Shown here in pieces: positions 23,885-45,024 of a stretch of DNA of 64,000 nucleotides (the first letter of the stretch is position 1; each line of letters opens with the position of its first letter). The notes below the pieces were generated by a model. It did not search any database. It was not told where the DNA came from and worked only from the letters and a program-made list of their open reading frames with translations. Both the position numbers and the translations under genes were made by a program. The stretch comes from Chloroflexota bacterium (lineage in GTDB: Bacteria; Chloroflexota; Anaerolineae; Anaerolineales; Villigracilaceae). Location: the NCBI GenBank assembly GCA_024434165.1, contig QMIW01000001.1, positions 124,001-188,000 on the forward strand, in the 5' to 3' direction.

Positions 23885-23888
23885 TGCG

Positions 23889-25419: not shown

Positions 25420-25494
25420 AGGACGCCGGACCACCCTGCTTTCGGCGGCGGGAATACTTTCGGATAACGAAACGTGAAAGAATGAGAGGACATC

Positions 25495-26523
25495 ATGAAG
25501 GAAAAACTGGAAACACAAATCGAATTGCCGGAAGGGTTCACCGCGCGCGGCGCAACCCTGGCAGATGCCGACATTGCATTCGAAATGTTCAATCTCTGGA
25601 TGCAGCGTTTGATCGGACAGGATGACATCACCAGCCCGAACATCCTGCGCGACGATTGGGCTTCCCCCAAATTCGACCCCGCGCGGGATATCCGCCTCGT
25701 GTTTTCGCCGGCGGGACAGTTGGTCGGGTACATCGAGGTGTGGACCACCTCCAACCCGCCCGTCCATCCGTGGATCTGGGGGCGCGTCCACCCGGACTTT
25801 GGCGGCTTGGGCATCGGCACCGCCCTGCTGACCTGGGCGGAGGAACACGCCAGCCGTGTATTGCCCGACCTGCCCGCGGACCTGCGTTTCGCGCCCCGCA
25901 CAGGTTCCCTGCGCGCTGCCGAAGGTTCGAAGAAACTATTTGAAGATTGCGGCTATCATCGCATTCGCAGTTCTTATCAGATGCGAATCGAAATGGATGA
26001 AGCGCCTCCCGCGCCGGTTTGGTCCGAAGGAATTACGCTCAAAACCGGCAGCCCTGGGGAGATTCCGGCGATCTATGCCGCATTCGAGGAATCCTTCCGC
26101 GACCATTTTGGTCATATCGAAGAGCCGTTCGAGGAAGGGCTTGCGCGTTTCACTCATTTCATGAAATCGGATGGGAACGATCCCGCTTTGTGGTTCCTTG
26201 CCATGGACGGTGAAGAGATCGCGGGCATCAGCCTGTGCCGTCCCGAGTCCTACGATGATGTGGACATGGGCTGGGTGAACGTCCTGGGAGTCCGCCGTCC
26301 GTGGCGCAAGCGCGGGCTTGGGCTGGCGCTGCTCCTGCACAGTTTCGGCGAATTTTACAGGCGCGGCAGGCGCAAGGCGGGTCTGGGCGTGGACGCGGAA
26401 AACCTGACCGGCGCCCTGCGGTTGTACGAAAAGGCAGGCATGCGCGTCCACATGGTGTTCGACACCTATGAAAAAACGATTCGCGGAGGACGTGAAATCA
26501 GTGTAGAATCACTGTCAGACTAA
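25495..26523 (+). CDS. Tandem-GNAT acetyltransferase 4
   Basis: 342 residues, two GNAT domains. Both keep recognisable CoA loops: HPDFGGLGIGTALLTWAEEH in the first and RRPWRKRGLGLALLLHSFGEF in the second, ending AGMRVHMVFDTYEKTIRGG. GAGAGG before the ATG; 75 bp separate it from gene 3. Closely similar to gene 3 in the C-terminal half, so genes 3 and 4 are a second duplicated pair. Confidence 0.87.
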   Translation: MKEKLETQIELPEGFTARGATLADADIAFEMFNLWMQRLIGQDDITSPNILRDDWASPKFDPARDIRLVFSPAGQLVGYIEVWTTSNPPVHPWIWGRVHPDFGGLGIGTALLTWAEEHASRVLPDLPADLRFAPRTGSLRAAEGSKKLFEDCGYHRIRSSYQMRIEMDEAPPAPVWSEGITLKTGSPGEIPAIYAAFEESFRDHFGHIEEPFEEGLARFTHFMKSDGNDPALWFLAMDGEEIAGISLCRPESYDDVDMGWVNVLGVRRPWRKRGLGLALLLHSFGEFYRRGRRKAGLGVDAENLTGALRLYEKAGMRVHMVFDTYEKTIRGGREISVESLSD

Positions 26524-27857: not shown

Positions 27858-27887
27858 TTGACGCGCGCCAGACTTTGCATGTATAAT
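27858..27887 (+). promoter_or_regulatory. Promoter of DUF4388-GTPase operon
   Basis: TTGACG at 27858-27863, 18-bp spacer, TATAAT at 27882-27887. The 27671-27857 stretch before it holds no gene. Confidence 0.8.
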
Positions 27888-27925
27888 CTCCGGGACTATC
27901 CCTCTTTATGGGAAGTAGAGGCACA

Positions 27926-28732
27926 ATGGCTCTGCGTGGCAATTTACGCGATTTTACGATTACTCAACTTTTGAACCTGATCAACCTTGCCAGCAAGACC
28001 GGCACACTGGTCGTGGATGGGGCGTCGGAACAGGCGTACATCTCCTTCCGCGACGGTAAACTGGCGTATGCCCGCATCGGAAAGGAAGACGGCAGCCTGG
28101 CTTCGGTTCTGTACAAGGCGAACAAGATCAACGCGAACCAATACCGCGCCATTGCAGACCGCGCCGGGCAGATGACGGACAAGGAACTTGGTTTGCTGTT
28201 GATCAACGCAGGCTACGTAACGCAGGAGGATATCCTGCTGAATTTGCAGGCATATTTCACCGACCTGGTGCGGAAGTTGTTCACGTGGGTGGAGGGTATC
28301 TTCCGCTTCGAGAACGATATCCTGCCGCCCGACGACCGCATCAACGTGCGGATGGACCTCGAGAACATCATCATCGAAGGCTCGCGCCAACTGCGCGAAC
28401 TGGAGCAGCTGCAGGACGAAATCCCCAGCCTGGATATGGCGCTCAAGTTCACCGAACGCCCGCTGACCAACATCAACCTGAGCGTGGATGAATGGAAGGT
28501 GGTCAAGTTCGTGGACCCGAAGAACACCATGCGCCAGATCGCGAAGACGAACAAACTGACCGAGATCGAGATTCGCAGGATCGTCTACGGTCTGCTGCAG
28601 GCGGGTTTGGTGGAACTGGCGCGCCCTGCCAACGCCCCGGCTCCGGTGAGCGTGAAGACCTTCCAAACGCCGGACAAGGAAGAGCAGAAATCATTGATCA
28701 ACAAACTGATCGGCCGCATTCGTCAGCTTTAA
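27926..28732 (+). CDS. DUF4388 (PATAN-type) protein
   Basis: 268 residues. N-terminal DUF4388 domain (1-100): LRGNLRDFTITQLLNLINLASKTG, a typical opening, with GTLVVDG and a second helical segment EDILLNLQAYFTDLVRKLFTWVEG. C-terminal winged-helix-like part (about 190-240) including MRQIAKTNKLTEIEIRRIVYGLLQAGLVEL. Such proteins accompany MglA/Arf-like GTPases, as here, and are thought to act as regulators or scaffolds. Start at 27926 has AGAGG upstream. First gene of the operon. Confidence 0.88.
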   Translation: MALRGNLRDFTITQLLNLINLASKTGTLVVDGASEQAYISFRDGKLAYARIGKEDGSLASVLYKANKINANQYRAIADRAGQMTDKELGLLLINAGYVTQEDILLNLQAYFTDLVRKLFTWVEGIFRFENDILPPDDRINVRMDLENIIIEGSRQLRELEQLQDEIPSLDMALKFTERPLTNINLSVDEWKVVKFVDPKNTMRQIAKTNKLTEIEIRRIVYGLLQAGLVELARPANAPAPVSVKTFQTPDKEEQKSLINKLIGRIRQL

Positions 28733-28759
28733 TTTATCCGGGCCGAAAGGATAGGAATT

Positions 28760-29299
28760 ATGCAAACGGTCAAAATGGTAGTGACAGGTCCATTCAGCGC
28801 TGGCAAGACGCAGTTCATCCAGTCTGTCAGCGAAATTGATGTGGTTGCCACGGAGCGCAGGATCTCCTCCGAGGAGGAACGTACCGTGAAATCATCCACC
28901 ACGGTTGCGATGGATTTTGGGCGCATCACCGTGGACGAGGACCTGGTCCTCTACCTGTTCGGCACCCCCGGACAGAAACGCTTCGACTTCATGTGGGAGA
29001 TTCTCTCCGAAGGCATGTTGGGATTCATCGTGATGGTGGACAGCACCCGCCCGGAGACCTTCCGCGAAGCCCGTTCGATTCTCGAAACGTTCCGCGCCTA
29101 CGCGCCCACGCCGTATGTCGTCGCCGCCAACAAACAGGATATGGAAGACGCATGGGACCTGGAAGACATGGGTCATGCGCTCCGCCTGGACAAAAACACA
29201 AAACTGCTGCCCTGCGTTGCCACGGACCGCAACTCTGTCAAAACCATCCTGCTGGAATTGTTGTACAGCATTCTTCAGGAAATGGAATCAGGGAAATAG
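28760..29299 (+). CDS. MglA/Arf-like small GTPase
   Basis: 179 residues. P-loop GPFSAGKT (10-17), switch Thr region (SSTTVAMDFG), G3-like LFGTPGQKRF (66-75) with Gly instead of the usual Asp before TPGQ, and NKQD (G4). These bacterial Ras-like GTPases set polarity, motility or assembly in other bacteria. AGGAAT site; 27 bp after the DUF4388 gene and 20 bp before the hydrolase gene. Confidence 0.93.
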   Translation: MQTVKMVVTGPFSAGKTQFIQSVSEIDVVATERRISSEEERTVKSSTTVAMDFGRITVDEDLVLYLFGTPGQKRFDFMWEILSEGMLGFIVMVDSTRPETFREARSILETFRAYAPTPYVVAANKQDMEDAWDLEDMGHALRLDKNTKLLPCVATDRNSVKTILLELLYSILQEMESGK

Positions 29300-29319
29300 C
29301 AGTGGGATGATCTTCTGCT

Positions 29320-30120
29320 GTGTCGTCAATCACCACTGATCAGGGTATCGTTCATTATGAAGTCTACGGGCGCGGGCGCCCGGTAATCCTTTTGCACGGC
29401 TGGCTTGGCTCCTGGGGGCTTTGGCAGGAGACCATGGCGTACCTCGGCGCGTTCTACCGTACCTACGCGCTCGATTTTTGGGGGTTTGGGGAATCGGGAA
29501 AGAAACGCGAAACGTACGCCGTTTCCGATTTTGTAGACCTTGTCAACCAATTCATGGACCAGTTGGGCATCGTCCATGCGCCGCTGGTGGGACACAGCAT
29601 GGGCGGCACGGTCAGCCTTTCGGTGGCGATCAAGTATCCCGACCGCGTGAGCAAGGTGGTGGTGGTTGGCTCGCCGATGGTGGGGTCGTCGCTGGCGCCG
29701 CTGCTCAAACTGGCTGGCCAGCGCCCCATCGCCTTCATGCTGTTCAACATGATGGGTCCCTTCCGCGCTTTCATGAAATATTATTATTCGCGCGTCATTT
29801 GCAGCGACCCGCGCTTCCCGGAGATGATGGACCGCGATCTCTCCCGCACCACCGTCGAATCCTTCCTGCGTTCCATCGCTTCGCTCCGCCGCACCGACCT
29901 GACGCCCATGCTTCCGCAGATTCGCGTTCCGGCGATGGGCATTTACGGTGACAAGGATTTGATCGTCCATCCGAAGCAGTGGCAGCCGATGTTGAACGGC
30001 ATTTCGCACGCCGTGATCGAACGCTTCCCCGATGCGGGTCACTTCCCGATGCTGGAGGAACCGACCCGCTTCAGCCAGATGCTGAAAAGATTCCTCGATG
30101 ACGACTATCCAAACCCATGA
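29320..30120 (+). CDS. Alpha/beta hydrolase (Ser nucleophile)
   Basis: 266 residues. HGWLGSWGLW oxyanion region, nucleophile elbow GHSMGG with Ser93, acid in YGDKDLIV, His in DAGHFPM. GTG start. An esterase/lipase-like enzyme, probably acting on a lipid or ester. It resembles the hydrolase at 41947 along its whole length, but that protein has Asp93. ATGA overlap with the V4R gene. Confidence 0.92.
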   Translation: MSSITTDQGIVHYEVYGRGRPVILLHGWLGSWGLWQETMAYLGAFYRTYALDFWGFGESGKKRETYAVSDFVDLVNQFMDQLGIVHAPLVGHSMGGTVSLSVAIKYPDRVSKVVVVGSPMVGSSLAPLLKLAGQRPIAFMLFNMMGPFRAFMKYYYSRVICSDPRFPEMMDRDLSRTTVESFLRSIASLRRTDLTPMLPQIRVPAMGIYGDKDLIVHPKQWQPMLNGISHAVIERFPDAGHFPMLEEPTRFSQMLKRFLDDDYPNP

Positions 30121-30740
30121 GCAATGACGCCTTCTTCTACCCTCAGAAAATGGGGAAGATCATCTTCCTGGGCATGGAGGAGGTCATCGGTCAAAGCGGG
30201 GTGAACGCCGTCCTCCGCCTTGCCGGGCGCGAAGATTTGATCCACAACCATCCGCGTTCGAGTGCCGAACGCACGTTTTCCTTCGAGACGGTGAGCGCGC
30301 TTCAACGGTCGTTGGAGCAGGTCTACGGTCCACGCGGCGGACGCGGGCTGGCGCTGCGGACGGGACGTTCCTGCTTCAAGTACGGGCTCAAGGAATACGG
30401 GTCCATCATGGGCATCACGGAAACGGCGTTCCGCCTCCTGCCGCTTTCCACCAAACTGCATACCGGCGCGAAGACCTTTGCCGACCTGTTCAACAAACAT
30501 ACCGACCAGCGGGTGCGGCTGGAAGAGACCGAGACCCAGATTCTCTGGCACATCGAGCGCTGCCCGCTGTGCTGGGAGCGGCGGGAGACGGAGCCGGTCT
30601 GTCACCTGGCGGTGGGGCTGCTGCAGGAAGCCCTGTACTGGCTGAGCGGCGGCAAGGTTTTTAACGTGGAGGAGACCGCCTGCATCGCCAAAGGCGACCC
30701 GGCTTGTACGATTACGATAGATAAAATCCCGCTTTCGTGA
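30117..30740 (+). CDS. V4R-domain protein
   Basis: 207 residues. N-terminal helical part related to heme-NO/V4R proteins (SSAERTFSFETVSALQRSLEQVYG), then a V4R small-molecule-binding domain (about 130-205) with CPLCW, CHLAVGLLQEALYW, VEETACIAKGDPACTITI; four conserved Cys could bind a metal or ligand. V4R domains sense hydrocarbons or bind (bacterio)chlorophyll intermediates; here a lipid-like ligand is an inference from neighbours. Starts within the hydrolase stop codon. Confidence 0.87.
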   Translation: MSNDAFFYPQKMGKIIFLGMEEVIGQSGVNAVLRLAGREDLIHNHPRSSAERTFSFETVSALQRSLEQVYGPRGGRGLALRTGRSCFKYGLKEYGSIMGITETAFRLLPLSTKLHTGAKTFADLFNKHTDQRVRLEETETQILWHIERCPLCWERRETEPVCHLAVGLLQEALYWLSGGKVFNVEETACIAKGDPACTITIDKIPLS

Positions 30741-30826
30741 GCGGAAACCCGGGGGAAAGCGGGGGAAATTCGCCTGATTAACAATTTTGTTTTGCCCGAT
30801 AACGTGTGTTATCCCCTTCTTTGATT

Positions 30827-30832
30827 TATAAT
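30827..30832 (+). promoter_or_regulatory. -10 box of leaderless LbH gene
   Basis: TATAAT ending 7 bp before the ATG at 30840; heads the second transcription unit of the signalling island. Confidence 0.75.
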
Positions 30833-30839
30833 CCTGAAC

Positions 30840-32117
30840 ATGCACAAGATCATCCTGCACGCGCCCAACCCGGTGATGCCATTCTGCGAACCGGCGCGTG
30901 ATTTGCGGATTCAGAATTCGCCGCTCTGGCTGCACCAGCGCAACCTCCTCGCGCCCTATGTGACCAGCGAACGGGAGCTGAAGCAGGGGGAACGCATGCA
31001 GCCCGTACGCGAGCCAAGCATCGTCTACCGCGACAACCTTTTTTTCGACGAAGATTACATCACCGCCTTCATGGAAGAGGCGTTGAAGCGCAAACGCCCG
31101 GTGCGGGCCGCCTTCCGCGCCGACGACCCCGCCTTCCGCGAGCACGCCCTGCCGCTTTCCATCTCCTACACTCCGGCGGGAAGTTTATATCTTGCCGATT
31201 TGTGGTACTACCCCAACGGTCCGGTGGCGGGGGCGGAGCCGCTCGTGATTGATTTGCAGGCGCGCGAGATCGGCTACTACCACGTACCGACCTACATGGC
31301 AGACCAGAGCGGCGACCTCGTCTTCCAGGTTCCGCTGCGGGCGTTGATCGCCATTGATTCGTGGGTGCACGTATTCATTGCGGACATGGTCTTCGGTCAG
31401 TTCGCGCGCGGCGCGCGCTTCGAGAAGCGCCTTAAGGAAGATCTGGGCTTCAAACTGAAGATCGTCGGCAAAGCCATCTACGAGGGACGCCAGATCTTGG
31501 AGTGTTCCGAACTGGTGAAGGTCGGCAAAGGCTGCGTCATTGACCCCAGCGCCGTCATCCACGGACCGACCATCATCGGCGATAACGTCACCATCAATGC
31601 CGGGGCGGTCATCGAAAACTGCGTCATCGGCAGCAACGTCAACATCTCGCAGGACGTGCAGTTGATGCTCTCGGTCATCGGCGACGGCGCCTTCCTGCCG
31701 TTCCGCTCCGCCCTGTTCATGACCACCCTGATGGAGAACTCGATGGTGGCGCAGAACACCTGCCTGCAAATGTGCGTCATCGGCAGGAATACGTTCATTG
31801 GCGCAGGCTCCACCTTCACCGATTACAACCTCATCCCGATTCCCATGCGCGCCCGCGATGGAAACGGAAACCTGAGCCTCTCCAACCGTCCGGTGCTGGG
31901 CGGATGCGTGGGACATAACTGCCGCATCGGCTCCGGGATGATCATCTACCCGGCGCGCACCATTGAATCCGATGTGGTGCTGGCGGCTTCGGCGGAGCGG
32001 CGCGTGATTGACAGGGACGTCACCTTCGCCCAGAGCGACCATCACAAATGGAAGCTCGCCCACATGCACCAGACTCCGTACCACCGAAACCTGAAAGCAG
32101 AGGTCGAGTCCTGGTAA
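30840..32117 (+). CDS. Left-handed beta-helix (hexapeptide) transferase-like protein
   Basis: 425 residues. An N-terminal domain of unknown type (1-215; contains RDNLFFDEDYITAFMEEALK, found in sugar nucleotidyltransferase-like proteins) is followed by imperfect hexapeptide repeats (about 235-385: VGKGCVIDPSAVIHGPTIIG, NVTINAGAVIEN and so on) forming a left-handed beta helix. Acyl- or nucleotidyl-transfer is the usual role of such folds. The next gene starts on the base after its stop, indicating tight coupling with the acyl-ACP reductase homologue. Confidence 0.8.
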   Translation: MHKIILHAPNPVMPFCEPARDLRIQNSPLWLHQRNLLAPYVTSERELKQGERMQPVREPSIVYRDNLFFDEDYITAFMEEALKRKRPVRAAFRADDPAFREHALPLSISYTPAGSLYLADLWYYPNGPVAGAEPLVIDLQAREIGYYHVPTYMADQSGDLVFQVPLRALIAIDSWVHVFIADMVFGQFARGARFEKRLKEDLGFKLKIVGKAIYEGRQILECSELVKVGKGCVIDPSAVIHGPTIIGDNVTINAGAVIENCVIGSNVNISQDVQLMLSVIGDGAFLPFRSALFMTTLMENSMVAQNTCLQMCVIGRNTFIGAGSTFTDYNLIPIPMRARDGNGNLSLSNRPVLGGCVGHNCRIGSGMIIYPARTIESDVVLAASAERRVIDRDVTFAQSDHHKWKLAHMHQTPYHRNLKAEVESW

Positions 32118-33224
32118 ATGGCAGCCGAGCATAACATGGATACGTTTGCGTTCATCATCCACCCCATTGACCCCAAACGCGACGTGAGCAGAAAATTTCC
32201 ACTCCTTGGGAAAGTGCTGACAGAGAGACAGATTGATTTCTTCTCCACCTTCTTTCCTCCTGTGTACATTTCGGAGATCGAAGGCATCACCTCCCAGGCG
32301 ACCGGCAAAACCATCAAAGGCTGGTTCATTGCCTGTCCCTACACCCCGCGCCGCATGATGCAGTTGCCTGAGCGTACGGTCTATCGTAAAATTATCCAGA
32401 CGGGCCGCATGGCGGAGAGATTGGGCGCCGATATTCTCGGACTTGGCGCATTCACATCGGTGATCGGCGATGCCGGTGTGACGATTGCCAAAGCGCTGGA
32501 TGTCCCCGTCACCACCGGCGATTCGTACACGGTGATGGTCGCGGTGCAAGCCATCCGCGAGGCGGCGAATGCGATGGGCATTCGCATGGCGGATGCAACG
32601 GTTGCCGTCGTGGGTGCCACAGGTTCCATTGGGCGCGTCTGCGCTGAACTGATGGCGGGTGAAGCCGCCCGGACGCTGCTCATCGCCCGGGACGAGAAAA
32701 AACTGGAAGGCTTGCGAGACAGGCTTCAGGTCCATGCCAGAGGCGAACTGTGTGTGAGTACAAAATTGGACGTTCTCAAGGACGCCCAGTTGATCCTGAC
32801 GGTCACCAGCGCCATCCATGACATCATCCGCCCGGAGCACCTTCAACCGGGCAGTGTCGTGTGCGATGTAGCCCGCCCCCGCGATGTTTCTGCAATGGTG
32901 GCGGCGATGAGAGATGATATATTAGTGATTGACGGCGGCATGGTGGATGTGCCAGGCCCCGTGAATTTCCATTTTAATTTCGGCTTTCCGGAGGGCAAAG
33001 CCTACGCCTGCATGGCAGAGACGATTGCCCTCGCCCTGGAAGGACGATTTGAGGATTACACCGTTGGAAAGGATATTACGCTCGAACGGGTGCGGGAAAT
33101 CACCGCGATTGCGGAGCGTCACGGCTTTCGCTTGAGCGGGTTCCGTTCGTTCGAGCGCGAGATTACGGATGAACAGATCGAAGCCGTTCGAAAGAACGCC
33201 CGCAAGGGAACACGACGCGCGTAG
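32118..33224 (+). CDS. Long-chain acyl-ACP reductase (AAR) homologue
   Basis: 368 residues. Aligns by eye to cyanobacterial AAR along its whole length: TSQATGKTIKGWFIAC, LGLGAFTSVIG, the VTTGDSYT segment, Rossmann loop VAVVGATGSIGRV, VIDGGMVD, and KAYACMAE, whose Cys298 matches the catalytic Cys of AAR. AAR reduces acyl-ACP/CoA with NADPH to fatty aldehyde. No aldehyde-deformylating oxygenase is in the window. ATG follows the upstream stop directly; an alternative start is seven codons in. Confidence 0.85.
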   Translation: MAAEHNMDTFAFIIHPIDPKRDVSRKFPLLGKVLTERQIDFFSTFFPPVYISEIEGITSQATGKTIKGWFIACPYTPRRMMQLPERTVYRKIIQTGRMAERLGADILGLGAFTSVIGDAGVTIAKALDVPVTTGDSYTVMVAVQAIREAANAMGIRMADATVAVVGATGSIGRVCAELMAGEAARTLLIARDEKKLEGLRDRLQVHARGELCVSTKLDVLKDAQLILTVTSAIHDIIRPEHLQPGSVVCDVARPRDVSAMVAAMRDDILVIDGGMVDVPGPVNFHFNFGFPEGKAYACMAETIALALEGRFEDYTVGKDITLERVREITAIAERHGFRLSGFRSFEREITDEQIEAVRKNARKGTRRA

Positions 33225-33233
33225 GAGGCTTAC

Positions 33234-34136
33234 ATGGCTAATGCTCGCCTTTTGGTAGTGGAAGACGATTTGGATATCGCCAACATGCTCAAGATCTATT
33301 TCTCGGGCTTGCAGTACGATGTGGATGTGGCGAACCGCGGACGCGACGCCCTGGAAAAGACCCGCCAGGTCCTGCCGCATTTGATCGTGCTGGATATCAT
33401 GCTTCCCGATATTGACGGTTACGAAGTATGCCGGACCCTGCGCACAAACACGCGCACCAGCCACATTCCGGTCATCTTTCTGACCCAGAAAGACGAACGC
33501 AGCGACAAACTGCAGGGGCTCGAACTGGGCGCGGACGATTACATCACCAAGCCCTTCGACATCGAGGAGTTGAAACTGCGCGTGCAGGGCGCCATCCGCC
33601 GCTCGGAACGCGAGAGCCTCACCGACCCGCGCTCCGGGCTTCCGGCGGGACGTTTGATCGAGGAGCAGCTGCGCCGCATCATCCGCGAAAAGGACTGGGC
33701 GCTGTTGGACGTGCGCGTCAACAATTTCGAGCCGTTCAAGGATGTGTACGGATTCGTGGCGGGCGACGACGTCCTGCGCTTTGCGGCGATGCTGATCGGC
33801 GAAGTGGTGGACGAACTCGGTACGCCGAGCGATTTCATCGGTCATGCCGGGGGCGATAACTTCATCATCATCACCACGAACGAAGCCGCGCCGCAGATCC
33901 GCCAGAAGATCAAACAACGCTTTGCAGAGGAAGTGCAGACCCATTACAACTTCATTGACCGCCAGCAGGGGTTCATTCAGGCGCCCAAAGCCGAAGGCGG
34001 CGTGGAAAAAGTGGGATTCATGACCCTCTCGGCGGGGCTTGTCTCGCCGAATCTGCACACATTCGCGGATATTCGTGAAATTACCGAACTGGCGGCGGAG
34101 GCTCGCAGGCAGGATTCAGCGGCGCCCGCCGCATAA
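33234..34136 (+). CDS. Response regulator with degenerate GGDEF domain
   Basis: 300 residues. Receiver 1-122 with Asp54 and Lys106 (YITKPFD); GGDEF-like domain about 128-295 starting LTDPRSGLP. The signature reads GGDNF (206-210), with Asn for the catalytic Glu, so cyclic-di-GMP synthesis is unlikely; it may bind a nucleotide or act by protein contact. AGGAGG precedes its ATG. It lies between the AAR gene and the giant kinase, which probably phosphorylates it. Confidence 0.9.
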   Translation: MANARLLVVEDDLDIANMLKIYFSGLQYDVDVANRGRDALEKTRQVLPHLIVLDIMLPDIDGYEVCRTLRTNTRTSHIPVIFLTQKDERSDKLQGLELGADDYITKPFDIEELKLRVQGAIRRSERESLTDPRSGLPAGRLIEEQLRRIIREKDWALLDVRVNNFEPFKDVYGFVAGDDVLRFAAMLIGEVVDELGTPSDFIGHAGGDNFIIITTNEAAPQIRQKIKQRFAEEVQTHYNFIDRQQGFIQAPKAEGGVEKVGFMTLSAGLVSPNLHTFADIREITELAAEARRQDSAAPAA

Positions 34137-34155
34137 GGTTGCAGGTGAGTTTCCG

Positions 34156-37100
34156 ATGTTTCCCGGGTTGGGCATTAGCCTGTTCGTCGCTGGGCTGGTC
34201 ATTGTTGGATTAGCCTGGCTGACTCTGCGCATGCTGCCGAGGTCGCAGCGGGCGGCACAGGCGAACGAAATCCACCCGGTTTTCCCCGAAGCGACAAAAT
34301 CGAACGAAGCGGTCATTCTGCTCCAGCCCGGCGGACGGGTGGAGTATATGAGCGCGCAAGCCAGGTCTTATTTCGGCTTGCGTGAAAACGAGCCGTACGA
34401 TATCGAACGGCTCGCGCGTTACGTCCGCCCCTCAGACGACTTTCTGGATATATGCGCGCTCCCCGGCTCCAAGCGGGTTTCCATCGGCGGCAGGCTGGTG
34501 GAACTTGCCTCCTTTGAAGTGCCGGGCGCGTACCCGATGATGCTGGTCTCCCTGCGCAGCCGGGAGGGCGCGCTTGGGCTGGAAGAGGACGCCGGCGCAG
34601 GAAGCGAGATTCTGCGGCTTGCAACCGAGTTCAGCCAGGGCATCGCCACCAGCCTCGACCTGCACACCACCGTGCGCTCCATCCTGGACCACGTCAGCCG
34701 CCTCGTGCCTTCGGACGTTCTGGAGCTCAAATTGTGGAGCGAGGAACGCCGCGCGCTGGTGCCTTATCGCTTCCAGCAAAGCGGAAGCGGACGGGTGGTC
34801 ACGGCTTCGCTTTCGCAGTTTGGCAGCCTCACCCAGCGGCTGGCGGAACGCCGCGAACCCTTCATGCTGGGCAATGTGCGCGCCGAGTACGCCTCGAACG
34901 GCGAAATGCTTGCCATCCAATCCTATCTCGGCATCCCGCTGGTGGCGGGCGGCGAACTGGTGGGCACGCTCGAAGCGGGCCAGATGAACAGCGGCGCATT
35001 TGGGGCGCACGATCTCAACCTGCTGGTGTTGATCTCCGGGCAGGCGGCGGTCGCCATCCGCAATGCAAAACTGTATGAAGAGGAACAGAAACGCCGCGCC
35101 GAGTTGGCGGGTCTGGCAAACTTGAACCAGGCGCTGAGTTCCGTGCGCGATGTGCAGGATGTGTTCACGCGCCTGGTCGAAAGCGCCGCGCCGCTCTTTC
35201 AGGCGGAGATCATCGGCTTCATGCTTTTCGATGAAGACCGCCGCATCCTTGAAGGAAAAGTCCCGTTCCGCGGACTGCCCCCCCATGTAGTCGAAATCTA
35301 CCGCGCCTCCATCCTGCCGGAAAGCCCCGCCGAAAGAGTGCTTGCCAGCCAGCAAGCCATCATCACCATGAACGCCATGCAGGATGAACAATGGCGCGCG
35401 CTCGGTCTGGCGGATGTGGCAACCGCGGCAAGCCTGCGCGATAATGCGCTCATCCCGCTTCTTTCTTCGGGACGGATGCTCGGCTATTTTCAAGTGGGTC
35501 ATCACCACCGGGGTGTGATCTCCTTTACCACCGAAGAAGTGCGCCTGATGAACATCGTGGCGAACCAGGCAGCGGCGATCATCGAAAATGTTTTGCTCGT
35601 CCAGCAGGCGCGTGCCCGCGCCCTGCGCGCCGACGCCCTGCGCCGCATCGCCAGCCTTACCTCCTCATCCGCCGCGCTGGCAGAGATTCTCAAATACTCC
35701 GTGCAGGAACTTGCGCGTCTCTTCCAGGCGGATGCAGCGGCGATCTTCCTGCTGGATGAAACGCGCGGCGTCCTGCGCCTGAACCGTGAATCCACCTACG
35801 GAGTCTCTGAGGAGGTCAGCCGGGAGTTTCTCCAAATCCATGTGGAGGATGACAATTACCGCTTTACCGTTTCAGGCAGCCGGAAGCCTTTCCTCTCAGG
35901 GAGGCTCAGCATGGATCGGAGGGTTTTGCCCGCCTATCGGGCGTTGACCAATGCCCTGGCGGTCGAATCAGCCGTCGTCGTCCCGCTTGTGGCGCGTGAA
36001 CGCGGTCTCGGTGAATTGATGCTCGGAAGCCGCCGCATTGACCACTTCAATGCCTACGATCTTCAAATCGCCTCCACTGCGGCAGGGCAGATCGCAACGG
36101 CGATTGAATCTGCCGGCTTGCTCGCCCAAACGGATGACTCATTGCGCCGCCGCGTGGAACAGCTCTCCGCGGTTGCCCGCGCCGCCAGGGAATTTGGCGC
36201 TTCGCTGGATGTCCGGCAGTTATTGCAAACGCTTCACGACGAAGCGGTGCGGCTCTCCGGCGCGAACTGCGCCTCGGCGCTTCTGCTGGAGACGGGCGGC
36301 GCCCCCGAAGACATGCGCCCGCAGATGATCGTGGGCTGCCCGCGCCAGCCGGAACTCACCTCGGTGGAACGCACCGCCTTGAAACTGGGCGAGCCGCTTA
36401 CCGTCTCGGACTATATCCACGACGGGGTTCTCCCGCCGCACGAAGGTTCGCGCTCGGGCTTGATCGTCCCAATCTCCCATCAGGCGCGCGCCATCGGCGT
36501 AATCTCTCTGCACTCCAACTATTCCAATCATTTCTCCGCCGAAACCCGCGAACTCGCGCAAATGCTGGCTGCGCAGGCGGGCATTGCCATTCAAAATACC
36601 CAGCGGTACCAAGCCGAGAAACAGCGCAGCGAATTGATGCGCCGCCGCTCCGAGACGCTCATGCGCCTCACCGATGTCACCTACTCGATGGGGCACGACC
36701 AGCCGCTCGACCAGGCGCTGCAGATCATCGCGCGCGGCATCCGCGATGCGACCCCCTTCCGCGTGGTGCTCGTGAGCATCGTCGAGGTTGAAACCGGGTT
36801 GTTGAAGCGCATCAGCGCGGTGGGCGTTCCGCACGAGATGCTGAACGACCTGTTTTCCCGTAAACAGCCGTTGAACAGCGTCCGGCAATTGATGCGCCCG
36901 GAATTCAAAATCAGCCGCTCTTATTTCATCCCCGCCGACCAGACCCCCATCATCCCGCCGGACCTGCACAGCGTCACGCTGGATCTATCCGCGCCTGCGG
37001 TGAAGACCGCCAACATGTGGGACCCGAACGACTTCCTGATCATCCCGCTGGAGAACGCCGAGGGACAGATCGTCGGTCTCATCAGCCTGGATGACCCCTC

Positions 37101-40100
37101 GAACGGTCTGCGTCCCGATGTGGCAACGATTGAATCGGCGGAGATCTTCGCCTCCCAAGCCGCCCTGTTGATCGGCAACACCCTGCGCCAGAGCGAATTG
37201 CGCTCGCGTATTGACTCGCTTTCCGCCGCGCTGGAGCGCCAGCAAAAACTGCTGGATATGACCCAGAACGACCTGCCGGTGCTGCTCCGCAAAGACCTCG
37301 AACAGACCATCGCCCTGCACAACCTCGACCGCCGCGCCCAGCGCGTGCGCGCGGGGCTGGCGATCACCGAATCCGTCAGCCGCCAGCTGGATGCCTCCTC
37401 GGCGCTTCAGGCGCTTGGACGAGAGACGCTCACCCAACTCGGCATGTCGGTGGCGCTTGTCGCCGAGAACACGCCCGATGGACCGCACCTCCAGCATGTG
37501 ATGGGCAGCCTGCCGCGCGCCACGAACGTGGAAGCGCTGTTCGGGCAGCGCAACCCCCTGCGCGCCTGTTTGCAGACCGGCGTACCGATCCTCATCCCAA
37601 ACCTCGATGAAAACGACGAATGGCGCGACGCCACCCTGCTCACATCCCTGCGGGCGAAGGGCGTCATCTGTCTGCCCATCCTCGTGGAAAACAAACCCGT
37701 CGCCGCCATGCTCGCCGCCAGCCCGGAGCCGATGCCTTCCTTCACCGAGGAAGATATCCAGGTCTACACCCAGATCTCCCAGCAGACATCGCTCATCCTG
37801 CAAAACATCTCGCTCCTGAACCAGACCCGCCGCCGCCTGGACGAGGTGAACCTCCTGCTCGATTTCAGCCGCCAACTCTCCGGCATGGACGGCGACGCGA
37901 TTGTCAAATCCCTGCTGGATAGCGCGCGGCGCGTCATCCAGCATGCCCATGCCGGCGTGGTCCTGCTCTGGAACCCGAAGACCGAAATGCTTTCGCCGCG
38001 CGCCGTCTCCGGCTATGCCGATAACGAAAGCATGCTGCGCATCAACTACCGCGCCGGAGAAGCCCTGCCCGGCACCGCCTTCCTCAACCGCAAGGCGCGC
38101 CGCGTGGACGAGATCAATTTTGCGCGCGATTACAACCTGAGCGCCGAAAACCTCTCGCTGTACCGCCAGGCAACCGGCGGGCGTGTGCCGGTCTCCTGCC
38201 TGCTTGTGCCGATTCTCGCGCCCGACCAGACCCTCGGCTTGCTGGTGCTGGATAACTTCAACACCACCGGCGCCTTCCGCCCGGAGGATGAAACCCTGTT
38301 GATCTCGCTCGCCCAGCAGGTTGCCCTCTCGCTGGATAACCTGCGCCTCGTGCAGGCGACCCAGGAACGCGCCGGGCAGCTGCAAGCCCTCAACGACGCC
38401 TCGGTTTCCCTGACCTCGAGCCTGAGCAGCGACCAGTTGATCAATTCCCTGCTCGACCAGCTGCGGCCCATCCTGCCCTACGATACGGCCACGCTCTGGC
38501 TGCGCGAAAAGGACCGCCTGACCGTCGCCGCGACGCGCGGTTTTTCCGACGTCGAACAACGCCTCGGTCTGTCGGTTGCCGTCAGCGACAGCGCGCTTTT
38601 CAAGGAGATGGCGCAGTCGGGTCAGCCCATCCTCGTCAAGGACGTGCGCGAAGACCCGCGCTTCCCGCCGGTGGAGGCTCCGCGCCTTTCCTGGCTGGGC
38701 ATTCCGTTGATTTCAAAGGGTGAACTGGTCGGCGTGATTGCCGTGGAAAAATGGCAGGCAAACTACTACACCCGCGAACAAATTCAAGTAGGCTTGACCT
38801 TCGCCAGCCAATCCGCGGTTTCGCTGGATAACTCGCGCCTGTACGAAGACAGCGTGAAGCGCGCCACCGAATTGGACCAGCGTTCCCATCGTCTGACCGC
38901 CGTCAACCGCTTCACCTCCGCCTTGACCCGCTCGCTGGATACCGAACAGATTTTGAGCCTCACCGCCGAGGAGTTGTACCGCGGCTTGAACGCGAAGCGC
39001 GTCTCTGTTGTGACCTTTGAGCGCGGTCAGGCATACTGGAAGATTGCCGTCCCCCGCATTCGCGCCAAACTCCCGCGCATCCTGCCGGATGCGCCCATCT
39101 TCAGCCGCTTGCGCGAGTCGCTCGGCATCTTCAACACCGACGATGTCCGCAGCGAGCCGGACCTGACATCCCTGCTCGACATGTTCGGCGAAAGCGCCAC
39201 CGCGCTGCTCATCCTGCCCATCGTCAGCGGGCAGACGCTTACCGCCCTGCTGTTCGCTCAAATGACGGGCGATGCGCGTTTCGGCATCAACGAACTCGAA
39301 GTGGCGCGCACCATCACCAATCAAGCCACCATCGCCATGGAAAACGCCCGCCTGTACCAATCCTCCGTCCGCACGGCGGCGCGCTTTGCCATCCTCAACG
39401 AGACCAGCTCGCTGGTCAGCGCAAGCCTGAACCCGGAGGAGATCTACGTTTCCGTTCACAAGGCGGCGGAGCGGCTCATGCCGCTGGATTCCTTTGCCAT
39501 CACCCTGCTGGATCAGGAGACGAACGAGATCGAACCGGTCTATCTGTTCGACAAGGGCAGGCGGGTGTTCGCCCAGCGCATTCCGTTCGGGCAGGGCTTG
39601 AGCAGCGAAGTGATTCGCTCCGGCAGGAGCATCCTGGCTTCCAGTTCCGAAGAGATGAACCGCCTGGGGACGGTGCGCGCAGGCGACGGCGACGAGACGC
39701 AGTCGCTGGTGGCTGTTCCCATGATCGTAGGCGGCAGGGCGCTGGGCATGCTCTCGGCGCAAAGTTACCAGCCCGGCGTCTACAGCGAAGAGGATATGCA
39801 AATCCTCGGCACGCTGGCAAACCAGGCCATCGTCGCCATCCAGAACGGACGCCTCTTCAAGGAGACCCAAACGCTCGCTTCCGAACTCGAAGCGCGCGTG
39901 GCGGAACGCACGGCGCAGTTGCAGCGCGAACAGCAGAACACCGAGACCCTCCTGCGCATCCTCACGGAAGTTTCCTCCAGCCTCGACCTCGACCGCACCC
40001 TGAACCGTACATTGTCATTGCTGAACGACACCATCGGTGCGGAACAGGGTACCATCTTGCTGGTGAACCCGGAGGACAACCTCCTGCATTACCGCGCCGG

Positions 40101-41565
40101 GTACGGCTATCTTTCGGACCGGTCTGCCAGCCCGAACCGCGCCGGTTTCACCTTGAAGATCGGCGAAGGTCTTGCCGGTTGGGTGGTGAAAAACCGCGAA
40201 GCGGTTTTGATCCATGATCTGTACCAGGATCCGCGCTGGGTGCGCAACCCCGCCGCCGGGCAGGACCATCGCAGCGCGATTGCCGTGCCCATGATGGTGG
40301 GCGAGGATGTGATCGGCGTTCTCATGGTCTTCCAGCGTATGGCGAACTTCTTCAGCGCGGAAATGCTCAACCTCGTCAAGGCGATTGCCAGCCAGGTGGC
40401 GGTGGCGATCAACAATGCCCGCCTCTACGAATTGATCCGCGACCAGGCGGAGCGCCTCGGCTTGATGCTCCGCAAGGAGCAGGTGGAAGCCAGCCGCCAG
40501 CAGTCCATCCTCGAAGCGGTGGCGGATGGCGTGCTCGTCACCGGCGTGGATAACCGCATCACCTTCGTAAACTCCTCCGCCGCCAGAATCCTCGGCGTGG
40601 AGGAAGCCCGCCTGCTTGGCAACTCGCTGGAAGGTTTTGCAGGCTTGTTCGGAAAATCCGCCGCGGCGTGGACGGCGACCATCCGCAATTGGTCCGACGA
40701 TCCCTCCACGTACAAGCCGAGCCAGCTTTACGCCGAACAGTTGGAACTGGAGAACGGGCGTATCGTGCTCGTCCACCTGGCGCCGGTCATCCATCAAAGG
40801 GATTTTCTGGGTACGGTCTCCATCTTCCGCGACATCACCCGCGAAGTCGAAGTGGACCGCCTCAAGTCCGAATTTGTGGCGACGGTCAGTCACGAACTGC
40901 GCACGCCCATGACCGCGATCAAAGGCTACGTGGACATCCTCACCATGGGCGCAGCGGGACCGCTGAACGAAAACCAGGTGCATTTCCTCGATGTGGTGCG
41001 TAATAACATCGAACGTCTCAACATCCTGGTGAGTGACCTGTTGGATATTTCCCGCATCGAATCCGGACGGGTTGTCCTCGAACAACAGCCAGTCAACCTG
41101 CATGAGATCGCCGAGGAAGTCGTTGCCGAAACCCTGCGGCGTTCGCAGACCGAGAACAAACCCATCGCGTTGTCCCTCGAGTCGCAAAAGAACCTGCCGC
41201 TTGTCATAGGCGATAACGGGCGCGTGCGCCAGATCCTCAGCAACCTGGTCAACAACGCCTTTAATTACACGCCCGAAAACGGCACCATTCGCGTCAACAT
41301 CCACCAGGAAAATGGCGAGGTGCAGGTGGATGTGGAGGATAACGGCATCGGCGTCAAGCCCGAAGACCAGGCGCGCCTCTTCGACCGCTTCTTCCGCGGC
41401 GAACACCCGCTTGTGCTTGCCACCCCCGGGACCGGGCTGGGTTTGCCCATCGTCCGCCAGTTGGTGGAGATGCACAAGGGACGCATTTGGATGAGAAGCA
41501 CAGGTGTGCCGGGCGAGGGCAGCATGTTTTCCTTCACCCTGCCCATCTACAATAACGGAGAATAA
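34156..41565 (+). CDS. Giant multi-GAF sensor histidine kinase
   Basis: 2469 residues. One N-terminal membrane helix (5-25), a PAS-like region (about 45-130), then about eleven successive GAF domains (roughly 155-2105, about 175 residues each, every one ending in an ANQAAxAIxNARLY-type helix), a PAS domain (2115-2230), HisKA with phospho-acceptor His2246 (VSHELRTPMTAIKGY) and HATPase_c (N box NAFNYTP, G1 DNGIGV, G2 GTGLGLP). The gene is unbroken. Many GAFs suggest integration of several small ligands or oligomer contacts; none has the Cys of a bilin site that I can see. The CheY-like gene begins at the next base after the stop. Start at 34156 chosen over an out-of-context upstream codon. Confidence 0.94.
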   Translation: MFPGLGISLFVAGLVIVGLAWLTLRMLPRSQRAAQANEIHPVFPEATKSNEAVILLQPGGRVEYMSAQARSYFGLRENEPYDIERLARYVRPSDDFLDICALPGSKRVSIGGRLVELASFEVPGAYPMMLVSLRSREGALGLEEDAGAGSEILRLATEFSQGIATSLDLHTTVRSILDHVSRLVPSDVLELKLWSEERRALVPYRFQQSGSGRVVTASLSQFGSLTQRLAERREPFMLGNVRAEYASNGEMLAIQSYLGIPLVAGGELVGTLEAGQMNSGAFGAHDLNLLVLISGQAAVAIRNAKLYEEEQKRRAELAGLANLNQALSSVRDVQDVFTRLVESAAPLFQAEIIGFMLFDEDRRILEGKVPFRGLPPHVVEIYRASILPESPAERVLASQQAIITMNAMQDEQWRALGLADVATAASLRDNALIPLLSSGRMLGYFQVGHHHRGVISFTTEEVRLMNIVANQAAAIIENVLLVQQARARALRADALRRIASLTSSSAALAEILKYSVQELARLFQADAAAIFLLDETRGVLRLNRESTYGVSEEVSREFLQIHVEDDNYRFTVSGSRKPFLSGRLSMDRRVLPAYRALTNALAVESAVVVPLVARERGLGELMLGSRRIDHFNAYDLQIASTAAGQIATAIESAGLLAQTDDSLRRRVEQLSAVARAAREFGASLDVRQLLQTLHDEAVRLSGANCASALLLETGGAPEDMRPQMIVGCPRQPELTSVERTALKLGEPLTVSDYIHDGVLPPHEGSRSGLIVPISHQARAIGVISLHSNYSNHFSAETRELAQMLAAQAGIAIQNTQRYQAEKQRSELMRRRSETLMRLTDVTYSMGHDQPLDQALQIIARGIRDATPFRVVLVSIVEVETGLLKRISAVGVPHEMLNDLFSRKQPLNSVRQLMRPEFKISRSYFIPADQTPIIPPDLHSVTLDLSAPAVKTANMWDPNDFLIIPLENAEGQIVGLISLDDPSNGLRPDVATIESAEIFASQAALLIGNTLRQSELRSRIDSLSAALERQQKLLDMTQNDLPVLLRKDLEQTIALHNLDRRAQRVRAGLAITESVSRQLDASSALQALGRETLTQLGMSVALVAENTPDGPHLQHVMGSLPRATNVEALFGQRNPLRACLQTGVPILIPNLDENDEWRDATLLTSLRAKGVICLPILVENKPVAAMLAASPEPMPSFTEEDIQVYTQISQQTSLILQNISLLNQTRRRLDEVNLLLDFSRQLSGMDGDAIVKSLLDSARRVIQHAHAGVVLLWNPKTEMLSPRAVSGYADNESMLRINYRAGEALPGTAFLNRKARRVDEINFARDYNLSAENLSLYRQATGGRVPVSCLLVPILAPDQTLGLLVLDNFNTTGAFRPEDETLLISLAQQVALSLDNLRLVQATQERAGQLQALNDASVSLTSSLSSDQLINSLLDQLRPILPYDTATLWLREKDRLTVAATRGFSDVEQRLGLSVAVSDSALFKEMAQSGQPILVKDVREDPRFPPVEAPRLSWLGIPLISKGELVGVIAVEKWQANYYTREQIQVGLTFASQSAVSLDNSRLYEDSVKRATELDQRSHRLTAVNRFTSALTRSLDTEQILSLTAEELYRGLNAKRVSVVTFERGQAYWKIAVPRIRAKLPRILPDAPIFSRLRESLGIFNTDDVRSEPDLTSLLDMFGESATALLILPIVSGQTLTALLFAQMTGDARFGINELEVARTITNQATIAMENARLYQSSVRTAARFAILNETSSLVSASLNPEEIYVSVHKAAERLMPLDSFAITLLDQETNEIEPVYLFDKGRRVFAQRIPFGQGLSSEVIRSGRSILASSSEEMNRLGTVRAGDGDETQSLVAVPMIVGGRALGMLSAQSYQPGVYSEEDMQILGTLANQAIVAIQNGRLFKETQTLASELEARVAERTAQLQREQQNTETLLRILTEVSSSLDLDRTLNRTLSLLNDTIGAEQGTILLVNPEDNLLHYRAGYGYLSDRSASPNRAGFTLKIGEGLAGWVVKNREAVLIHDLYQDPRWVRNPAAGQDHRSAIAVPMMVGEDVIGVLMVFQRMANFFSAEMLNLVKAIASQVAVAINNARLYELIRDQAERLGLMLRKEQVEASRQQSILEAVADGVLVTGVDNRITFVNSSAARILGVEEARLLGNSLEGFAGLFGKSAAAWTATIRNWSDDPSTYKPSQLYAEQLELENGRIVLVHLAPVIHQRDFLGTVSIFRDITREVEVDRLKSEFVATVSHELRTPMTAIKGYVDILTMGAAGPLNENQVHFLDVVRNNIERLNILVSDLLDISRIESGRVVLEQQPVNLHEIAEEVVAETLRRSQTENKPIALSLESQKNLPLVIGDNGRVRQILSNLVNNAFNYTPENGTIRVNIHQENGEVQVDVEDNGIGVKPEDQARLFDRFFRGEHPLVLATPGTGLGLPIVRQLVEMHKGRIWMRSTGVPGEGSMFSFTLPIYNNGE

Positions 41566-41940
41566 ATGGCGAGAATTTTGATTGCAGAAGACGAACCCGA
41601 TATCCGCGAACTGGTTGCTTTTACCCTGCGGTTTGCAGGGCATGAGGTTGTCACCACCTCGAACGGGGAGGAGGCGCTCCATCAGGCAGGCCTGGTCGTA
41701 CCCGACCTCATCCTCATGGATGTGCGCATGCCCAAGATGACGGGCTACGACGCCTGCCGCGCCATGAAAGCCGACTCCGCCCTCAAGGATATTCCTGTGG
41801 TGTTCCTCTCCGCCAAGGGGCAGGATGCCGAAATTCAAACCGGTTTGGATGCGGGCGCGGAGGAATACCTGCTCAAACCCTTCGCTCCCGACCAACTGGT
41901 GGAACGCGTGCGCGCCATCCTCGGAAAGTTTGGAAAATAA
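41566..41940 (+). CDS. CheY-like response regulator
   Basis: 124 residues, one receiver domain: IAEDEPDI, Asp52 (LILMDVRMPKMTG), LSAKG and Lys in YLLKPFAPDQL. No output domain, so it relays or titrates phosphate from the giant kinase, whose stop codon it directly follows. Confidence 0.95.
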   Translation: MARILIAEDEPDIRELVAFTLRFAGHEVVTTSNGEEALHQAGLVVPDLILMDVRMPKMTGYDACRAMKADSALKDIPVVFLSAKGQDAEIQTGLDAGAEEYLLKPFAPDQLVERVRAILGKFGK

Positions 41941-41946
41941 CCCTCA

Positions 41947-42735
41947 ATGAGCGCAATCATTCTCGACGGTTCGATGGTGCATTATGAGGCGTTGGGGCGC
42001 GGACGCCCCATCATCTTCCTGCACGGCTGGGTCGGCTCATGGCGCTATTGGATCAACGCCATGCAGGTCGCATCCACATCGTTCCGCGCCTATGCGCTCG
42101 ACCTCTACGGCTTCGGCGACACCATCCGCGACCCCATGCGTTACCCGCTCGAAAAACAGGCGGAACTCATCCACGGCTTCCTGGAAGAAATGGGCATCGG
42201 CAAGGTGGCAATCGTCGGTCACGACCTGGGCGCGCTGGTTGGTTTCAACTTCATCAAGAAATGGCACGCCAGCGTAGACCGCATGATGGTCGTCAACTGC
42301 CCGATGGAATACGATACGGTCAATGCCCGGATGCGGACCGCTCCCGCCACAGAACTTGCCGAGTGGCTGACCGGACGCGTCCCCGAAGCCATGTCTGCCC
42401 TCGCAGACGCCTCCAAAGTGGACCCGAAAGCGGTTGCCGCTTCGATGGAGAGTCTCCAGGCGGATAACTTGTTCCCCAGCGTCCGCAACCTCGGCGTTCC
42501 CTGTCTGTTCGTCTACGGGGCGAACAACCCCGCCATCACCCTGCCCACGCAGGAACGGGTGGACGCCCTGCCCATGCACATGCACCAAATCAACCTCGAA
42601 GGCGCGGGTCACTTCCCCATGCTCGATAACCCTCCGCAGTTCAACCGTCTGCTGACGGACTTCCTTGCCCTCGACTCCGGGGTCAGCCCCAGGGAATTGC
42701 AGCTCAAGGAAGAATGGAAACGCCGCGTGCGTTAG
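41947..42735 (+). CDS. Alpha/beta hydrolase with Asp nucleophile
   Basis: 262 residues. Paralogue of the hydrolase at 29320 (VHYEALGRGRPIIFLHGWVGSW against VHYEVYGRGRPVILLHGWLG). The nucleophile elbow is GHDLG with Asp93, as in epoxide hydrolases and haloalkane dehalogenases; His in GAGHFPM, acid in YGANNPAIT is less clear. Last gene of the signalling island. Substrate unknown. Confidence 0.9.
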   Translation: MSAIILDGSMVHYEALGRGRPIIFLHGWVGSWRYWINAMQVASTSFRAYALDLYGFGDTIRDPMRYPLEKQAELIHGFLEEMGIGKVAIVGHDLGALVGFNFIKKWHASVDRMMVVNCPMEYDTVNARMRTAPATELAEWLTGRVPEAMSALADASKVDPKAVAASMESLQADNLFPSVRNLGVPCLFVYGANNPAITLPTQERVDALPMHMHQINLEGAGHFPMLDNPPQFNRLLTDFLALDSGVSPRELQLKEEWKRRVR

Positions 42736-42842
42736 TGCCGCAAAACTTATTTTGCGGTACTTTTCAGGCTCAAGCCGCCGTCCCCGGCGGCGATTTTATT
42801 ACTTGACATTCCATTCCCACCGTCCTATACTCTGAAACACAA

Positions 42843-42937
42843 CCGAACGGGGAGTCCCGCAAGACGGGACTGAGAGGAGCGTGAACGCGCTCGACCCGCA
42901 TCACCTGATCTGGTTCATGCCAGCGGAGGGATTCTCG
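42843..42937 (+). ncRNA. TPP riboswitch (THI element)
   Basis: Core segments GGGGAGTCCCGC, CTGAGAGG, GAACGCGCTCGACCC, ACCTGATCTGGTTCATGCCA, GCGGAGGGA occur in the TPP-aptamer order. A terminator follows at 42951, so thiamine pyrophosphate should turn transcription off. Confidence 0.96.
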
Positions 42938-42950
42938 AATACATTCGCCA

Positions 42951-44727: not shown

Positions 44728-45024
44728 TTACTTTGTCGGCTTTACAACGTCCCAAACAATCTCCGGGTATCGTGCCGCCACTTGCAGTAATACACGGGCG
44801 GGGCCCTGCGGGGTACGCCTGCCTTGTTCCCAATTTCGCAGAGTTGCCGTGCTGATGCCAAGTAGTGAGGCAAAATCTTGCTGGGAGAGTTTATAGCCTG
44901 CGCGGATACGCTTGATATTTGGCGCAGTGATCTTGAAGGCACGAGAAGGTTTCTTTTCTCCGCGTAATATCGCCCCGCCTTCGCGAACGCTTTCCAAAAG
45001 GTCGTTGAACAATTCTTCTTTCAT
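44728..45024 (-). CDS. XRE-family antitoxin (HigA-like)
   Basis: 98 residues. Helix-turn-helix at about 40-92: IKRIRAGYKLSQQDFASLLGISTATLRNWEQGRRTPQGPA. It should bind and neutralise the adjacent toxin and repress its own operon. Its ATG overlaps the toxin stop by 4 bp; AGAGGA is upstream. Order toxin-antitoxin fits HigBA-type modules. Its 3' end is 3 bp from the end of thiB, so the module sits tightly inside the thiamine operon on the opposite strand. Confidence 0.92.
   Translation of the reverse strand: MKEELFNDLLESVREGGAILRGEKKPSRAFKITAPNIKRIRAGYKLSQQDFASLLGISTATLRNWEQGRRTPQGPARVLLQVAARYPEIVWDVVKPTK

Follow-up and report, generated by a model that had tools for sequence, protein, structure and literature searches.

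The window analyzed here is a 64,000-nucleotide stretch of Chloroflexota contig QMIW01000001.1, and our analysis concerns ten genes, A through J, that occupy positions 27908 to 42735 of it on one strand (referred to below as the island). Open reading frame (ORF) calls and Pfam labels uphold both the genes and the identities assigned to this same-strand block by the original prediction, which had been made from the sequence alone. The ten genes are as follows:

27908..28732, + strand: A, DUF4388 protein (Pfam PF14332, 87.9 bits)
28760..29299, + strand: B, small GTPase of the Ras superfamily, MglA/CvnD-like (exceeds the Pfam cut-offs of ATP_bind_1, Ras, and Arf)
29320..30120, + strand: C, alpha/beta-hydrolase with GHSMGG (Ser93) and an intact triad (Abhydrolase_1)
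30117..30740, + strand: D, stand-alone V4R protein (V4R in Pfam at 44.1 bits, cut-off 31)
30840..32117, + strand: E, left-handed beta-helix protein (Hexapep and Hexapep_GlmU above cut-off)
32118..33224, + strand: F, single-domain homologue of acyl thioester reductases (name based on matches in NCBIfam and the PDB)
33234..34136, + strand: G, response regulator, REC plus degenerate GGDEF (GGDNF) (Pfam)
34156..41565, + strand: H, histidine kinase with 11 GAF stretches, PAS, HisKA, and HATPase (Pfam)
41566..41940, + strand: I, CheY-like receiver (Pfam)
41947..42735, + strand: J, alpha/beta-hydrolase fold with GHDLGA (Asp93) and a basic/aromatic C-terminal tail (Abhydrolase_6)

The spacings between consecutive genes, from A to J, are 27, 20, -4, 99, 0, 9, 19, 0, and 6 bp, in agreement with the earlier description of 0- to 27-bp spacing with one exception, which is the 99 bp preceding E. 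The start of H was placed at ATG 34156, 19 bp after G; a longer frame, from TTG 34039, overlaps G.

To determine the conservation of this gene order in relatives, as the original prediction had proposed for Anaerolineae, we combined two sets of loci. A scan of GTDB contigs with F as the query, which finds close relatives only, gave 41 loci, and a further 40 regions were picked by hand from 90 reductase rows of genomes of the class (31 single-domain and nine of a second form, described below); since the genome sets may overlap, some loci may represent one species counted twice. Order was counted in loci with an F identity of at least 48%, using an upstream set with more than 5.5 kb of flank (n = 51) and a downstream set with more than 9.5 kb (n = 53). 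Rows with internal stops (e.g., A of L024, B of L013, F of L034, G of L022 and L034, and H of L005 and L021), with query coverage under 75-80%, or with identity below the per-gene threshold were left out before the counts.

We found A-B-C-D-E-F in 37 loci of the upstream set, A-B-C-E-F in nine, E-F in one, and F alone in four (two of these in Bacillota), such that A, B, C, usually D, and E precede F in 46/51 loci. Downstream of F, G-H-I-J follows in 43/53 loci, and the remaining ten have some or none of these genes; one locus, L067, has a G homologue some 11.8 kb downstream of F. In addition, the distances computed for genes A, B, C, E, F, and G are correlated with each other (r 0.84-0.96, 42 loci, without a housekeeping control). 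The order therefore recurs in dozens of loci and is not unique to this genome, so that the original prediction withstands the refuting condition it had set, although some of the parts do occur apart in relatives.

The first genes of the island encode a GTPase and its putative partners. A is the only DUF4388 match in its own genome, and we take its DUF4388 domain to be of the PATAN type. In 55 rows of B, the P-loop residues G15/K16/T17, the G3 motif G68-x-P70-G71, and the NKxD motif N124-K125-x-D127 are invariant, and MglA is among its PDB matches. No roadblock protein is encoded in the window, and two roadblock matches occur in the genome. One locus of the same genome (L107:7571-9501) combines roadblock, V4R, and REC/GGDEF genes, the V4R protein being 44% identical to D and the REC/GGDEF protein 46% identical to G. 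This combination was followed in a survey of V4R paralogues in 100 class genomes, for which the 30 best loci were taken; 25 of these are not island loci (the locus just described is included, and some are cut by contig ends). A roadblock gene adjoins the V4R gene in 17 of the 25 and a REC/GGDEF gene in 22. Within the island itself, L068 and L085 have a roadblock gene between B and C; together with L098, from another class, they are the 3 of 106 stretches searched that carry one. At E 0.001, none of the ten proteins matched DUF742 (CvnC).

The two hydrolases differ in their active-site states. Orthologues of C and J were separated by profile, leaving out frames of fewer than 200 or more than 699 residues or below 100 bits, and the window itself is not in the counts. 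The nucleophile elbow of C is Ser in 67/67, and its aligned Asp213 and His241 are kept in 58/58. The same elbow position in J is Gly in 31, Asp in 12, Ser in 8, Asn in 4, and Ala in 3 (n = 58), and it is also Gly in the seven loci from other classes where it is readable (L097 and L099-L104); the basic/aromatic tail motif is present in 49/58. By these residues, C is an intact serine hydrolase and J a pseudo-hydrolase in most lineages. As such, the two paralogous hydrolases that had been distinguished by Ser93 and Asp93 are both present, but only the Ser of C is a conserved feature. A haloalkane dehalogenase or epoxide hydrolase role for J, which its GHD motif and PDB matches would suggest, was rejected given that Asp occurs in only 12/58.

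The predicted model of D (predicted local distance difference test score [pLDDT] of 94.9) matches the folds of H-NOX, MopR/PoxR, and TRAPPC3/Bet3, including palmitate-bound TRAPPC3. H-NOX reaches a Z score of 14.8, Thorarchaeal TRAPPC3 one of 14.6, and mouse Bet3 one of 13.4, where differences below 1 are ties. A heme-binding H-NOX reading was set aside: H-NOX ties TRAPPC3 at the top of the fold list, but Pfam gives only V4R. In an alignment of 41 rows, C162 and C189 are invariant and E186 and C197 are at least 90% conserved, which makes the four residues a candidate zinc site; presumably, this set corresponds position by position to the zinc site of MopR. In MopR-type sensors, three Cys and one Glu hold zinc (parts of PMC10715001), and the V4R-type fold holds palmitate or phenols in other proteins (parts of PMC10933270). 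One genome, G076, has an extra V4R gene between E and F (G076:C2:3255-3836).

For E, the only Pfam models to exceed their cut-offs are those of the beta-helix, Hexapep and Hexapep_GlmU. Its predicted model has a pLDDT of 80.3, with much of the beta-helix below 60, and matches ST0452 with a Z score of 27.7 over 319 residues, the GMPPA/GMPPB complex with 20.9, and eIF2B with 17.7. The GxGTR signature loop was found within the first 60 residues in 0/61 E orthologues. On this model, E appears to be a sugar-nucleotidyltransferase-like fold joined to a left-handed beta-helix, with the signature loop missing.

In the kinase half of the island, G keeps the REC Asp54 in 58/58 rows, and the Glu of the GGDEF position is present in 0/58, which confirms the degenerate GGDEF that had been noted before; position 209 is Asn in 38, Asp in 18, and Thr in 2. 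A diguanylate cyclase role for G was consequently rejected, since the Glu of GG(D/E)EF is absent throughout. H has 2469 residues, with a HisKA domain that contains its H-box, HATPase_c, and one N-terminal hydrophobic segment, and I keeps Asp52 and Lys104 in 46/46. The 11 GAF stretches of H and the receiver of I given by Pfam bear out the eleven-GAF kinase and CheY of the original prediction. A 3484-residue kinase with 16 GAF stretches occupies the same gene place as H in L094 (L094:643-11094).

Reductase F (368 residues) aligns over most of its length with the N-domain of PigE (4ppm) and with the acyl-acyl carrier protein (ACP) reductase (AAR) of Synechococcus (6jzq). It retains the Rossmann motif of AAR/PigE, and its catalytic Cys, Cys298, is kept in 81/81 alignment rows. 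Portions of PMC8341465 place the catalytic residue of AAR at Cys294 and describe AAR and, on the evidence of the authors, PigE as reducing a thioester to an aldehyde with a conserved Cys; TamH is a related fusion protein (excerpts of PMC9594044). Against TIGR04058 (long-chain acyl-ACP reductase), F scores 131.7 bits and does not reach the equivalog cut-off of 449.7. Against NF053554 (PigE), it scores 226 bits versus 850 and covers only positions 2-359 of the 837 of the profile, and the C-terminal aminotransferase domain of PigE is not present in the 368 residues of F. The homology to acyl-ACP reductases proposed earlier therefore holds for the alignment and the catalytic Cys, but F stays below the curated cut-offs for such enzymes. 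The aldehyde-deformylating oxygenase (ADO, PF11266) gave zero matches in the genome and was detected in the Synechococcus elongatus control; the AAR-ADO alkane pathway was rejected for this genome on that ground.

To place F within the island, we compared its occurrence with that of E in 199 class genomes. Single-domain F is present in 59 genomes and E in 67, and all 59 genomes with F carry E (in G028 only as a 77-residue fragment at a contig edge), so that, within these genomes, F does not occur without E. In 55/59, a single contig carries both genes, separated by no more than 816 bp, and in four they are on different contigs. Eight class genomes have E without F. One of them, G058, has only a weak match, and its stretch, L092, has otherwise only kinase- or receiver-like matches; the other seven keep island genes around E without F (L083-L089). 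Two further islands, from genomes of the same taxonomic order as the window, also lack F, namely L105 and L106, the latter comprising A through E only. Among the nine genomes with F-less islands, six have no F match at E 0.001 and three have only the second form, at about 42% identity. Reductase F is thus an accessory, dispensable part of the island, and these nine islands, together with the E-G-H loci of other classes without F described below, show that the reductase is not the center of the system.

Outside the class, F and E lie on different contigs in one genome (G208), and the loci from Bacillota and Armatimonadota have F-like genes with no other island gene in the stretch. The F-like gene of L039 lies between genes that we read by eye as dusB, greA, and lysS. 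Four rows from Bacillota and Armatimonadota fall among the Anaerolineae rows in a reductase tree that gave long-branch warnings, and one origin of the island reductase is therefore not shown. A second form of the reductase, with an identity of about 42% and usually encoded in frames of 690-900 codons, is present in 27/199 genomes, and its nine rows make up one side of a branch in the tree; for this reason, and since it occurs with E in only 8/27 genomes, it was set aside as an island part. One such protein, of 729 residues (L073:9800-11989), has the reductase on its C-terminal side, and its N-terminal half gave no Pfam match at E 0.1. By eye, L040:2-727 may be a separate gene for an N-terminal half of this kind.

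Altogether, these results suggest to us, at a probability of roughly one half, that the island is a conservon-like Chloroflexota signaling module in which metabolite sensors feed into an MglA-type GTPase and a GAF-array phosphorelay. In the arrangement that we infer for its ligands, phosphotransfer partners, GTPase coupling, and output, one arm would consist of A as DUF4388 adaptor, B as MglA-type GTPase, C as serine hydrolase, usually D as V4R receptor for hydrophobic ligands, and the nucleotidyltransferase-like E. The other would consist of G, H, I, and J, providing a GAF-array kinase, two receivers (one of them on a dead GGDEF), and a pseudo-hydrolase. Hydrophobic, acyl-type metabolites would be bound by D, by J, and by the GAF and PAS domains, and E may report the sugar-nucleotide state. 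Kinase H would integrate these inputs and phosphorylate G and I. Once phosphorylated, the two receivers would act together with A, D, and a roadblock protein from another locus to determine the nucleotide state of the GTPase, B. The acyl signal may be made, converted, or cleared by hydrolase C and, in islands that have it, by reductase F.

Several observations weigh against this reading. Gene D is absent in nine of the 46 loci with A-B-C-E-F (L009, L019, L031, L054, L055, L058, L059, L060, and L067), in which the gap from C to E, at 52-265 bp, leaves no room for it. Three loci (L054, L058, and L059) have A-B-C-E-F without G through J in the stretch, L106 has A through E only, and, of 12 loci that belong to other classes in the phylum, 11 have E-G-H without A, B, or F in the stretch. 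A hydrolase follows H in ten of these 12 loci, D is present in six, and I in three, and L098 has instead A, B, D, E, a hydrolase, and the roadblock gene. The arms are therefore separable, and a single joint machine is not proven. Among the F-less islands, a contig end truncates L084 and L088, and L084 and L089 also lack C; in G055 and G146, E and F lie on contigs of sufficient length to establish that the two genes are unlinked. The kinases at the position of H vary much in length by lineage (16, 12, or 6 GAF stretches), and in the 8/58 orthologues where J has Ser, it may be active. Finally, the conserved order could also reflect shared regulation of unrelated products.

Two alternatives seem to us possible but doubtful, and to the same degree. 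The island could be a metabolic operon, with C, E, and F as enzymes of a lipid or glycolipid pathway that the GTPase, kinase, and receivers merely regulate. The catalytic residues kept in F and C argue for this, as does the fold of E, since a nucleotidyltransferase joined to a beta-helix also serves acyl or acetyl transfer. However, GxGTR is lacking in all 61 E orthologues, the reductase is dispensable, and Pfam reveals no further biosynthetic enzyme among the ten conserved genes. Alternatively, the island could control polarity or surface motility through an MglA-roadblock switch driven by the phosphorelay, the lipid-like parts being side inputs. This explanation draws on the MglA-type GTPase adjoining DUF4388 and on the roadblock links (compare part of PMC4316618), but it does not account for the 11/12 other-class loci that lack A and B in the stretch.

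The model of the original prediction, in which a fatty aldehyde made by F is the signal and the whole island produces and senses it, is in our view unlikely. The original prediction is supported in part: its gene order, the Cys and Rossmann motif of F, the hydrophobic-ligand fold of D, and the tight linkage of E and F all stand, and the missing ADO match implies that an aldehyde would not be turned into an alkane by that route. A central place for the reductase is not supported, given the nine islands without F (six of them in genomes without any F match at E 0.001) and the other-class loci with E-G-H and no F beside them.

We consider it improbable that the island encodes a metabolite-gated exchange-factor complex for the MglA-type GTPase, in which D would hold an acyl chain, E would read a sugar nucleotide, and the kinase and pseudo-hydrolase would tune the exchange. 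The folds of D (TRAPPC3/Bet3, in the Rab exchange complex TRAPP) and of E (eIF2B subunits) also occur in eukaryotic nucleotide-exchange complexes. If true, this reading would amount to TRAPP-like logic in bacteria and would fit the proposal, made in PMC2253512, that Bet3 probably descends from V4R. A chance neighborhood of unrelated genes, which the separation of the parts in some genomes might suggest, is hardly credible in view of the ten-gene order in many loci and its tight spacing.

The signals associated with the island are as follows:

27858..27887, + strand: promoter-like site before A, TTGACG-18-TATAAT (consensus scan, 11/12 matches; this is no evidence for a function)
30827..30832, + strand: bare TATAAT, 7 nt 5' of the ATG of E (read from the sequence, not in the scan list)
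42774..42791, + strand: terminator-like hairpin 3' of J (consensus scan)

The start given for the island in the original prediction, 27858, is the -35 of the promoter-like site before A. In total, the scan gave 7 promoter-like sites versus 4.2 (standard deviation 2.2) in shuffles, and single sites therefore mean little. As for the internal promoter proposed at the 99-bp gap before E, the consensus scan lists zero sites there; only the bare TATAAT is present, and its sequence and its distance of 7 nt from the ATG make it a possible leaderless start of a second unit.

On the downstream side, a thiamine pyrophosphate (TPP) riboswitch at 42838-42948 opens the next unit, whose first gene we read as thiamine pyrophosphokinase; a homologue of this gene lies 3' of the island in at least 15 of the 53 loci of the downstream set (flank above 9.5 kb), and in many of these loci the available sequence stops close to that point. 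Farther on, at 44728-45338 on the minus strand, two overlapping ORFs resemble, by eye, a RelE-type toxin and a helix-turn-helix antitoxin. Upstream of the island, a row of GNAT acetyltransferase-like ORFs (by eye) occupies 23847-26523, and a c-di-GMP-I-GGC riboswitch lies at 18949-19043.

Among the titles listed by a literature search (V4R, roadblock, MglA, and Chloroflexi), none describes this island, many subscription journals being outside its coverage. The search likewise returned nothing on acyl-ACP reductase with Chloroflexi and Anaerolineae or on a Chloroflexi Ras-like GTPase with roadblock. The ten-gene order, present in many families of the class and partly in other classes, marks a regulator for which no description was found in these searches. 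It brings together, in one testable unit, a Ras-like GTPase, a protein of V4R/TRAPPC3 fold, a GAF-array kinase of 2469 residues, and two proteins that are apparently pseudoenzymes, and the natural deletions (islands without the reductase, without V4R, or without the kinase arm) allow their roles to be told apart.

Several known systems resemble parts of the island. Loci that combine a GTPase, a kinase, and a roadblock protein, including conservons, have precedents (passages of PMC4316618 and PMC8510531). Like the actinobacterial conservons (cvnA-D), the island encodes together a Ras-like GTPase (CvnD), a kinase-type partner, and a small adaptor, with a roadblock gene in L068 and L085. Unlike them, the island of the window lacks DUF742 and roadblock (CvnB), its kinase has a GAF array and HisKA, with the receivers on separate proteins, and it adds a hydrolase, a V4R protein, a beta-helix protein, and a reductase. 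PATAN proteins occur near some MglA genes, and coupled MglA-roadblock pairs are known (sections of the same two papers); the island resembles such MglA-MglB systems with PATAN neighbors (PMC4316618, in part) in its MglA-type GTPase beside DUF4388 and in the two roadblock matches of its genome, but differs in its fixed ten-gene context with a giant kinase.

D has the fold of the V4R sensors MopR/PoxR and of TRAPPC3/Bet3 as well as a conserved set of three Cys and one Glu, whereas it is free-standing and adjoins a Ras-like GTPase gene in a bacterium. E has the two-domain fold of ST0452, GMPPA/GMPPB, and eIF2B subunits, but without GxGTR. RsbQ-RsbP-PAS is a bipartite sensing module in which RsbQ needs its triad (extracts of PMC3183031), and the proximity of J to H is similar in that a hydrolase gene lies near a PAS-bearing signaling protein; in the island, however, the nucleophile of J is lost in most lineages, and it is the intact hydrolase, C, that adjoins the GTPase. 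Finally, F is, like cyanobacterial AAR and the N-domain of PigE, a Rossmann reductase with a conserved catalytic Cys, but it scores below the curated cut-offs, has no aminotransferase domain, and belongs, in a genome without an ADO match, to a signaling locus.

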